Positions 9,435 to 13,226 of a stretch of 64,000 bases of DNA are shown here, piece after piece. The stretch comes from Anaerolineae bacterium (GTDB lineage Bacteria > Chloroflexota > Anaerolineae > Aggregatilineales > Phototrophicaceae): NCBI GenBank assembly GCA_025454525.1, contig JALOOG010000012.1, forward strand, positions 1 to 64,000, in the 5' to 3' direction. Within the stretch, counting starts at the first letter, position 1. The number at the start of each line of letters is the position of its first letter. The notes under the pieces were generated by a model. The model ran no database searches. It was given only the letters and a program-made list of their open reading frames with translations, and was not told where the DNA came from. Made by a program: the position numbers and the translations under genes.

Positions 9435-10361
9435 TCAAAACAAAGGGAGTTGTGCGAGAATAGGTACCGATGAGCGTGCTTTATCTTCAATATAGGCTTG
9501 AATACAAGTGGCCACAAACTCCGCCAATTTCACGGGAACGGCGTTGCCGATCATCTGCTCAAGATCGGTTTTTGTACCAGAAAACTGAAAGGTTTCGGGA
9601 AAAGTTTGCAGATAACTACGTTCGATGGTGGTTAATGGGCGAATGGCAGCACTCATTGGCGCAGAGTCTTGTGGATGTGTTCGATAAGTTGCTGGAATTG
9701 GACGATTCACCCCGCGAATGGTGGGACTTGGTTCATAGATACTAAAGATAGCGCGTCGGGCATAACTTCTTGGGTGTCGATAATAGTGTTCAACGCCGAG
9801 TCGATCACCTAGATAATCAAATACTGTCAGCGGTTGAGGTGCAAAACGTTGTTGATAGTAGGGTTGTAACGTGTTATGACCGCCCCCCAATTCTGCCACT
9901 AAAAAATAACGTTTGCGGTTTTGCGGCACTCCACATAAACTAGCGTTAAGAATCGCCTCGGTCAATCCATAACCACGATCAATCAATAGTTGTTTCGCAG
10001 TTTTAAGGCTTTGGCTTTTGTGTATCAAATCCACATTTTCCATGACAACCCACTCTGGACAGGTATCTATGACCATTTTCGCAAATTGAATCGTAAGATC
10101 GGCACGTCCTTGTTGTTCATCACGTTTTCCGGCACTGGAGTAATCCTGACAAGGTGGGCCACCGATCAGCATATCCGGTGAGTTGGGCAGTCTCGTAACT
10201 TCTCGTAAATCCGTGAGGTGAATCGGATGCTGAAAGTTTTGGCGGTACACCTCTACTGCCGCTCCCCAATGATCGTAAGCTGCGATGAGGTTATATCCCA
10301 CATTTTGGAAGCCTAATGATAGTCCACCACACCCAGCAAATAGATCAATCACACGCATCAT
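9435..10361 (-). CDS. DNA cytosine-C5 methyltransferase (HindV-like, predicted GRCGYC)
   Basis: 308 residues with all diagnostic 5-cytosine methyltransferase blocks: DLFAGCGGLSLGF (motif I, AdoMet), GGPPCQDYS with catalytic C71 (motif IV), MENVD (VI), QNRKRYFLV (VIII) and GNAVPVKLAEF (X). It follows the endonuclease gene by six bases, and AAGGA lies just before the start (10361 or 10358). In Haemophilus the HindV pair has the same gene types side by side, so the recognition GRCGYC is an inference from the neighbour. GATC density (8 in 927 bases) is less than half that of the surrounding genome, suggesting transfer. It appears intact, so it would now act as a solitary methylase. Confidence 0.93.
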   Translation of the reverse strand: MMRVIDLFAGCGGLSLGFQNVGYNLIAAYDHWGAAVEVYRQNFQHPIHLTDLREVTRLPNSPDMLIGGPPCQDYSSAGKRDEQQGRADLTIQFAKMVIDTCPEWVVMENVDLIHKSQSLKTAKQLLIDRGYGLTEAILNASLCGVPQNRKRYFLVAELGGGHNTLQPYYQQRFAPQPLTVFDYLGDRLGVEHYYRHPRSYARRAIFSIYEPSPTIRGVNRPIPATYRTHPQDSAPMSAAIRPLTTIERSYLQTFPETFQFSGTKTDLEQMIGNAVPVKLAEFVATCIQAYIEDKARSSVPILAQLPLF

Positions 10362-10367
10362 GAATCC

Positions 10368-11429
10368 TTATTCAAACAATTCAAGTGAACTAAGGATCGC
10401 CGCATCTAGCCGACGTTCTGGACTTAACAAATGTTGACCGCCCCCTAAAATAATAGATTTAATCGCCGTGCGTTGGATACGCGGAGTCGTTAATTCAGCG
10501 CATTTCATCCATTGATGGGTAATGCGCCCGGGAATAGAAAATGCTTTATCATTTTTGGTTGCATGTGATAATTCATCGATGATTTTGGCATGATTAATTT
10601 GACCGTCTTCAGCATAATCCAATAGCATTTTCATCAACCAAATAATTGAACGTGCTTGACGTGTAATGCGATTCATTTTGTCGCTGACCACATAAAAGAA
10701 CAATTGCGTGAATGCGAAATTACTCCATACAAACAGATCAAAGGCATTTTGGTGTAAAAGAGGTTTTTTGCCTTGTGTTTTCCATATAGGTTACATCAAG
10801 AGAGGGTGTTGTAAATGAGCAGACTCGTTCATAATGTGGGTCAAATTTTTTACCATAACAGGTAAATACGGGAGAATTTCTTCCCCGCTATTCCAATCGT
10901 CGATCTGAAAAGGGGTGGTCATCAATAGCTCTAAAAGAGTCAAGCGTTGATCTTTAAAGGCAAAGGCGATGCTTAAAGCTAAATAGACAATGGTATCTGG
11001 TCGGATCACAATTTCACAACTATACCCGTTGTCATCTAAATGATAGGTAGAATTATCGGGTAAAGCAGTCAACTTAATCTCAAGACCGCGTAAACTAAGC
11101 GATGTAGATCGTTGTAGAGTGACCAGATCGATACAGGGTAAACTCCCGACAATCAATTGTTGATATGGGGTGAAATCACTTTCAAATGCGAAAAATAAAT
11201 CATCATCTAACGGCGGAAGTCCGAACAGGTCACTGACCTTGATTTGAGAATGAATCAGTTTCCCTTCAGAATTTAAAACCAGATAGATCGGATTGATAGA
11301 TTGGCTATACATATAGCAGGCTAATGCTGCTGGAAAAGTGGCATTAAAATTGTTTTTACTCCACCCTTCTTCGGTAGAGAAATCACGATTAGAGTATTGA
11401 AGTCCAAAAAGGGCAGGATTTGTAATCAT
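10368..11429 (-). pseudogene. HindVP-like type II restriction endonuclease, split by one in-frame TAA
   Basis: The first part encodes 212 residues beginning ITNPALFGLQYSNRDF and stops at TAA 10793-10791. The same reading frame then stays open for 140 more codons to a stop at 10368, including LGGGQHLLSPERRLDA near the end. No frame change is needed: 11429 to 10703 is exactly 242 codons. Read through, the protein is 352 residues, about what I recall for HindVP-family enzymes, which start with the same ALFG..(S)NRDF pattern and sit beside a C5 methylase. One nonsense mutation (or a sequencing error) therefore separates it from a full gene. GATC density is low (8 in 1.06 kb), as in the partner methylase. 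Family assignment is from memory of the motif and context. Confidence 0.72.
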
Positions 11430-11663: not shown

Positions 11664-13226
11664 ATGAAATTATTGATCAGTTATTCCAGTCAAGACAAAA
11701 AATGGGTGTTTGAGTTGGCCGAAGCCCTACGCGCACGGCATGAGGTCTGGTGGGATCGCAAGGTGTTACCCGCGTCGGATTGGTGGGACGCGATCCTCAC
11801 CAATCTCGAAAAAAGTGATTGTATCTTGTATATACTAAGCCCGAAATCGGTGGATTCGATCTATTGTCGGGCGGAGATCGCTTATGCGGTCGCGTTGAAT
11901 AAGCCGATCCTACCGTTGATCCTTGAGCCGTGTGTATATCCTAAGCTATTAGAGGGAAATCGGACGCAATATCACGCGATCGCTGACGGTGAGACGATCA
12001 AAGATGTGTTGTTAGTGATCGCGGAATCATTGGGGGAAATCCGCTATGATCTAGGGGTTGGCAAGCGCTATGCCCCACCCACCACGCCACCTCACCGTCC
12101 CCATGAACCGAAACCCACCGATCATCGCGATGCAGATGAGGTGTTTCAATTGGCCGAAGACGCGGTTGCGGTCGATTTTGAGAAGGCCGAAGCCTTGTTT
12201 CAGGCGGTGATCGCCGCTGATCCCAAGATCTTAGGCGTGGCGGCCAAAAAGCGATTAGAAACCTTGCGATCGGAGCGGGAACGCGGTCAAGCCTATCAAC
12301 GGGTCAAGCGTTTCGCGCAAAATCCCGCCTTGCGAAGCAGCGCGAAAGAGGCATGGCGCGCCTTTCAAGCGGAATATCCGGGCTATGATCCCGACGGTAT
12401 CGCGTTATTGTTAAAAGATCCCGATGAGACTCCGATCCAAAAAGCGATCCGATCGGCTTACGCCTTTAGGGGAAAACGCAACGCGGATTGGACTCCAGTA
12501 GTGATGCAATTTAGCGATTTGAAGATCCCAGAGATGCCGTTTTGCCTCGTGCCGGTCGGATCGTTTGAGATGGGCGATGATCGCCACGATGATCAGAAAA
12601 AGCACCCGCAGACGATCACGCGGCCGTATTGGATCGGGCAGTTTCCCGTGACCAACGCGCAATGGAAGCGAGCGGTGGCGGCCAAAGTGGTGAGTGAGCC
12701 AGCTAAAGGTAATCCGTTGACTTGGTATCAGGATGCGGCGATGCAGGATGCGCCTGTGGTCGGAGTCTCATGGTTTGAAGCGCTGAAGTTCTGCCAGTGG
12801 TTAGGGGCGCGGTTGCCAACCGAACGGGAATGGGAGTACGCCGCACGGGGAATCGAGAGTCTCGTTTACCCGTGGGGAAATGACTGGGAAAACGGGGATA
12901 GGGCGGTTTGGTCGGGGAATAGCGGTGGTAAACCGAACCCAGTGATGGTGAAACCGGAAGGGCGGAGTTGGGTTGATGCTCGGCATCTGAGTGGCAATGT
13001 CTGGGAGTGGTGTAGCACAGTTTATGACGAGTCAAACTACCCTTATCCGTATCAAGAAGATGACGGACGTGAATATTTATCTTATGATAATTATCAGCGC
13101 GTCTTGCGGGGTGGCTCTTGGCTCAACAATGTAGACTACCTCCGCGCTGCGAATCGTTACTGGGACGTTCCGTCGGTCCAGTTCAACTACCTAGGCTTCC
13201 GTTGCGCCCGCTTTCTTGATTCTTGA
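11664..13226 (+). CDS. TIR domain protein fused to a C-type-lectin/FGE-sulfatase-like domain
   Basis: 520 residues. Residues 1-125 are a TIR domain: LLISYSSQDKKW, DRKVLPASDWW, and LSPKSVDSIYCRAEIAYA with Glu71 where TIR NADases carry the catalytic glutamate. Residues about 150-260 are a helical, TPR-like linker. Residues about 290-517 are an FGE-sulfatase/CLec fold (PVGSFEMGDD, VSWFEALKFCQWLGARLPTE, LSGNVWEW, RVLRGGSW, LGFRCAR). The two cysteines of true formylglycine-generating enzymes next to GGS are absent, so this half probably binds ligand rather than oxidising cysteine. GATC is frequent up to about 12660 (27 in 1 kb) and absent from the last 567 bases. It may be a sensor-effector defence or signalling protein. 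No clear Shine-Dalgarno sequence. Confidence 0.85.
   Translation: MKLLISYSSQDKKWVFELAEALRARHEVWWDRKVLPASDWWDAILTNLEKSDCILYILSPKSVDSIYCRAEIAYAVALNKPILPLILEPCVYPKLLEGNRTQYHAIADGETIKDVLLVIAESLGEIRYDLGVGKRYAPPTTPPHRPHEPKPTDHRDADEVFQLAEDAVAVDFEKAEALFQAVIAADPKILGVAAKKRLETLRSERERGQAYQRVKRFAQNPALRSSAKEAWRAFQAEYPGYDPDGIALLLKDPDETPIQKAIRSAYAFRGKRNADWTPVVMQFSDLKIPEMPFCLVPVGSFEMGDDRHDDQKKHPQTITRPYWIGQFPVTNAQWKRAVAAKVVSEPAKGNPLTWYQDAAMQDAPVVGVSWFEALKFCQWLGARLPTEREWEYAARGIESLVYPWGNDWENGDRAVWSGNSGGKPNPVMVKPEGRSWVDARHLSGNVWEWCSTVYDESNYPYPYQEDDGREYLSYDNYQRVLRGGSWLNNVDYLRAANRYWDVPSVQFNYLGFRCARFLDS

Follow-up and report, generated by a model that had tools for sequence, protein, structure and literature searches.

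The minus strand of the window, by which we mean the whole 64,000-base stretch analysed, carries a restriction-modification operon in which an endonuclease gene (R) is followed by a C5-cytosine methyltransferase gene (M) that starts 6 bases past the end of the R frame (Table 1). The R frame runs from an ATG to a TAA with one internal stop only, the TAA at codon 213. As the first-pass annotation had described, the two ORFs on either side of this lesion, 11429-10791 (212 aa) and 10703-10368 (111 aa, TTG start), share one frame on the minus strand, with 29 open codons between the premature stop and the first start-type codon; the frame check and the span of the Pfam matches both bear this out. 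Directly upstream of the operon, and divergent from it, lies a gene for a TIR domain fused to an FGE-sulfatase (SUMF1-like) domain.

Table 1. Coordinates of the interrupted operon, its parts and the divergent upstream gene
Feature	Position	Strand	Remarks
R gene, HindVP/BsaHI-type Type II restriction endonuclease frame	10368..11429	-	353 codons including the premature stop, followed by the terminal TAA (10370-10368)
Premature in-frame TAA, codon 213	10791..10793	-	column is Gln in 12/13 and Glu in 1/13 intact homologues
N-terminal fragment, 212 aa	10794..11429	-	PF09519 positions 1-190 (E 5e-64)
C-terminal stretch, 140 residues	10371..10790	-	PF09519 positions 192-332 (E 5e-62); no good start codon at its head
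ExK motif, E117-I-K119, before the stop	11073..11081	-	aligned with R.BsaHI E130-V-K132 (PMC2413257)
SPERRLD, residues 336-342, after the stop	10404..10424	-	equivalent of R.BsaHI C-terminal SPERRFD (PMC2413257)
M gene, C5-cytosine methyltransferase, 308 aa, intact	9435..10361	-	PF00145, 226 bits; aligned with the neighbours of R homologues
TIR domain fused to FGE-sulfatase (SUMF1-like) domain	11664..13226	+	

The interrupted endonuclease and its intact partner

The family profile PF09519 (RE_HindVP) is matched on both sides of the stop, and since the two matches leave out a single profile position, exactly one family residue is replaced by the stop. The whole R frame scores 444.6 bits against the 332 positions of the profile, as compared with 427-449 bits for intact full-length relatives, and the 29 codons that follow the stop align with homologues as conserved HindVP family sequence. 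We aligned 13 intact full-length R homologues, seven from relatives of the source genome and six from named genomes, leaving aside a gene cut by a contig end (G001) and one that is itself disrupted (L014). The family alignment called for by the first-pass annotation gives a clear outcome: all 13 pass through the stop column with a sense residue. A natural end of the protein at residue 212 was looked for and is rejected, as none of the 13 ends there.

The identity of R is 46-56% to 10 full-length homologues and 47.6-47.9% to three added ones. Matches to PF09519 occur in 6 of 151 and in 5 of 400 genomes, two of which are shared, and among the resulting nine distinct genomes only that of the window has the stop. 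Where a column is invariant in the other 13 proteins, the window protein keeps the residue in 31 of 32 cases before the stop and in 35 of 35 after it; the same test applied to each of the 13 members in turn gives 31/31 to 31/34 and 35/35 to 35/39, respectively. The end branch of the window R in the tree of 14 sequences (0.44) is below the median (0.53), so there is no long branch. Apart from the stop, the R reading frame is without decay.

No phage homologues of R were found. Distant HindVP-type genes occur on small plasmids of enterobacteria (24 records, of which 23 are predicted to be mobilizable and 20 come from Escherichia), with 35-37% identity among the matches listed. The excluded gene of L014 comes from a Saprospiraceae bin; about 118 residues are missing from it at 2457-2606, where the frame changes. 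It is either a second broken copy or a bad join, the contig name giving a coverage of 1.3.

The stop separates two motifs that matter in R.BsaHI. The ExK motif, proposed to be catalytic in that enzyme, precedes it, while the SPERR(F/L)D motif is encoded past it and is missing from the translated 212-aa product. Replacement of R351, in the SPERR motif of R.BsaHI, by alanine leaves negligible activity (PMC2413257). Having lost SPERR, whose Arg is essential in R.BsaHI, the truncated product is probably inactive, a judgement based on mutants of the homologue and not on the window protein. The window R is thus a member of PF09519 by descent and, judging by its truncation, probably not a working enzyme. 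The homologue L008 was modelled (mean pLDDT 76.8, pTM 0.82), and in this structure the premature stop, residue 213, falls centrally within a predicted strand (209-216). Searching the PDB by fold with this model for a solved PD-(D/E)xK member returned no credible match, and no solved relative of R was found by sequence.

The M gene is 51-65% identical to the M gene beside each of the 13 homologous R genes and aligns with them without damage. Blocks PPCQ, ENV, QxRxR-like, and GNAVP, which we take to be the conserved C5-methyltransferase blocks of the window M, are all intact in the alignment with these 13 HindVP-type neighbours. Together with the PF00145 match, this upholds the earlier statement that the neighbouring cytosine methylase is undamaged. 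Among 151 relatives, M homologues at E <= 1e-40 are restricted to the own genome and to four relatives of the family, G014, G025, G034, and G071, which are those with a full-length R match. The own genome has 2 C5 and 8 N4/N6 methylase matches. By analogy with M.BsaHI, which methylates the central C of GRCGYC (PMC2413257), the window M is predicted to modify the same base.

Three systems serve as proven comparators, BsaHI from Bacillus stearothermophilus and HgiDI and HgiGI from Herpetosiphon giganteus. Like the window, they join a PF09519-type R, with ExK and SPERR, to a C5-methylase partner, and they recognise GRCGYC, the specificity that site absence indicates for the window; unlike theirs, the window R is interrupted by a single premature stop, and its activity and specificity are predicted from sequence. 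HindVP of Haemophilus influenzae Rd, the name-giver of PF09519, belongs to the same protein family, but it is reported to be without ExK and inactive in vitro, whereas the window R has ExK but is truncated (PMC2413257). The first-pass label "HindV-like" therefore holds for the family, while BsaHI, HgiDI, and HgiGI are more apt comparators than HindVP.

Absence of GRCGYC sites and its link to the gene

The window contains no GRCGYC site, against 84.6 (sd 8.2) in shuffled sequences. The own genome sample, composed of the window and 60 further stretches (909,827 bases, including 5,374 N), contains a single one, where 1,196, 1,034, and 785 are expected under Markov models of order 1, 2, and 4, respectively. 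Seven relatives with an intact R are similarly depleted, with observed/expected counts (order 2) of 1/49, 0/138, 0/21, 7/127, 2/136, 1/122, and 4/164, i.e., ratios of 0-0.06. In 25 relatives without a PF09519 match, hand-picked from listings and hence non-random, 1,108 sites are present where 1,472 are expected, with a ratio of at least 0.44 in 23 of them (one sample, G195, is with 4.6 kb too short for reliability). A rank test of the eight gene-bearing against the 25 gene-less genomes gives p = 1e-4, these genomes being related and not independent. The GRCGYC specificity predicted by the first-pass annotation is thereby supported from a different side, the site being missing where the gene is found and retained in 23 of the 25 genomes without it. 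From this gene-linked absence it follows that the system was real, GRCGYC-specific, and long resident; for the window R itself, cleavage of GRCGYC is indicated indirectly, through the lack of the site in the genome.

The single site of the own genome, GACGTC at 1294-1299 of L109, lies in what reads as an acyl-CoA dehydrogenase-like gene, and is perhaps the first to return. The two gene-less exceptions are G013 (L146; 0 observed, 44.3 expected) and G021 (L149; 4 observed, 31.5 expected), each sampled over 20 kb, in which searches found neither a PF09519 gene nor a C5-methylase. Either a system since lost or some other, unrelated enzyme with a GRCGYC target may account for their lack of sites, and GRCGYC absence alone is consequently no proof of a resident HindVP-type gene.

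Avoidance of palindromes is strong in the own genome, where 14 of the 64 six-base palindromes stand below 0.1 of expectation and several are fully missing (CACGTG, 0/252; GCATGC, 0/150; TGCGCA, 0/294; GTGCAC, 0/174). Comparable purging affects 22 of 45 testable palindromes in G014, 19 of 55 in G071, and 18 of 49 in G363, a pattern suggestive of numerous Type II systems in this group, whether still present or already gone. A general avoidance of palindromes is rejected as the cause of the GRCGYC deficit, since the non-palindromic pair GACGCC/GGCGTC is gone too: none is observed against 466.5 expected in the own genome, and 6 against 754 in the eight gene-bearing genomes, with 711 against 657 in the 25 controls. 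The absence therefore follows the gene and covers the whole degenerate site, and does not reflect a general dislike of palindromes.

Loss of the sites by methylcytosine deamination is unsupported here, as the central C-to-T product of GRCGYC stands at 0.87 of expectation in the own genome. With this product not in excess, the purge is better explained by selection through cleavage than by methylcytosine mutation. The test is clear for the own genome only, the product being mildly above expectation (1.1-1.3) in G014, G025, G034, and G071, as in some controls. As to timing, 14,547 words of the sample are one change away from GRCGYC, and the one site seen bounds the divergence at about 0.08% per position (95% upper limit), an average since selection stopped that assumes equal rates; most of these words lie in coding DNA under constraint, and at neutral positions divergence could be several-fold greater. 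With almost no sites returned, too little time can have passed since any inactivation for GRCGYC to reappear: either R was lost very recently, or in most cells it was not really lost.

Avoidance of Type II sites is known to be stronger for long-resident systems and to leave traces after their loss (Rusinov et al. 2015, PMC4687349). The avoidance described here likewise outlasts the complete system, with the difference that R persists in nearly unaltered form. GRCGYC has also been described as markedly scarce in cyanobacteria that carry a GrCGyC methylase, whether or not the endonuclease accompanies it (PMC4390886). That methylase-linked lack resembles the present case, which differs in belonging, as we judge, to another phylum and in the broken R that is still in place.

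Interpretation of the stop codon

We consider it fairly likely that the locus is a BsaHI/HgiDI-type operon whose target GRCGYC has been purged from the genome and whose R was very recently stopped at codon 213, leaving the intact M alone. A PF09519 Type II operon, R then M, would have been active on GRCGYC long enough to purge nearly all chromosomal sites before a very recent, single nonsense change at codon 213 of R. Translation would then halt inside the fold, ahead of the C-terminal SPERR required in the family, cleavage would be lost, and M would be left solitary in a genome with almost nothing to methylate. The stop itself, the family of R, the undamaged M, the purge of sites and its tie to the gene are demonstrated by the analysis, whereas the fragment's loss of activity, the order of these events, and the reality of the stop in the living population are what we infer.

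The most serious competitor, to which we give perhaps a minor share of belief, is an artefact of consensus or strain, in which most cells would have an intact R, the contig would show a minority allele or an error, and the system would be ordinary and active. The genome, with 230 contigs, 97% completeness, and 2.5% contamination, resembles a metagenome bin; the rest of the R frame is undecayed and the sites have not returned, and their near-total lack also fits an endonuclease that is still working. Resequencing has, moreover, shown that single premature stops and frameshifts were in many cases errors, a point discussed for R-M genes (PMC3488263). A one-codon substitution within an otherwise clean consensus is, however, a rare kind of assembly error. 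Genuine loss of the endonuclease first is, for its part, common when R-M systems decay. The very recent inactivation proposed by the first-pass annotation agrees with the single site left in the sample and with the lack of other frame decay, with the artefact, for which that annotation had also allowed, as its less likely alternative.

The undamaged downstream frame and the missing return of sites would also suit readthrough of the TAA or its decoding as an amino acid, either of which would yield full-length enzyme at a low level, but we regard this as very improbable: of 718 long frames in the sampled genome 389 end in TAA, more than in any other stop, the same codon ends the R gene at the normal C-terminus of the family, and no homologue has a stop at the column of the premature one. 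A genome-wide recoding of TAA is rejected for the first of these reasons, and the recoding that the first-pass annotation had offered as an alternative is unlikely. Slightly more improbable still is an enzyme in two pieces, with N- and C-terminal parts made separately and assembled into a working endonuclease, so that the stop would be tolerated or selected. In its favour, both parts are well conserved, but no in-frame ATG, GTG, or TTG occurs within 29 codons past the stop, a start at 10703 would omit conserved sequence, the break would fall inside a strand according to the model, and none of the 13 other members is split at that point. Of two versions of a scan for other genes with one stop, the first listed none and missed the known R case, and the second gave two other candidates with the R case below its cut-offs, which makes the scan an insensitive one.

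A BsaHI/HgiDI-type Type II system that loses its endonuclease first is of a kind already known; what is new is that the site counts provide independent evidence for specificity, long residence, and recency. Under the favoured reading, that of a recent stop in a long-resident operon, the locus would represent ordinary decay that is unusually well dated, the count of returned GRCGYC sites acting as a clock for endonuclease loss that needs no comparison of strains. The depth of the purge, about 1 in 1,000 of expectation, indicates how completely a lineage can clear a restriction site, and it weakens the usual argument for the keeping of R-M systems, namely that the methylase is always required.

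More speculatively, and with clear doubt on our part, self-purging of target sites may free a genome from its own R-M system, the window having caught the middle step. The series would begin with the seven relatives that keep both genes in working form and are almost free of sites, continue with the own genome, equally free of sites, in which R has just been lost, and end with G013 and G021, which lack the site and have no PF09519 gene and no C5-methylase. If this is true, a chromosome without targets would make methylation dispensable and post-segregational killing impossible, so that either gene could be lost free of cost.
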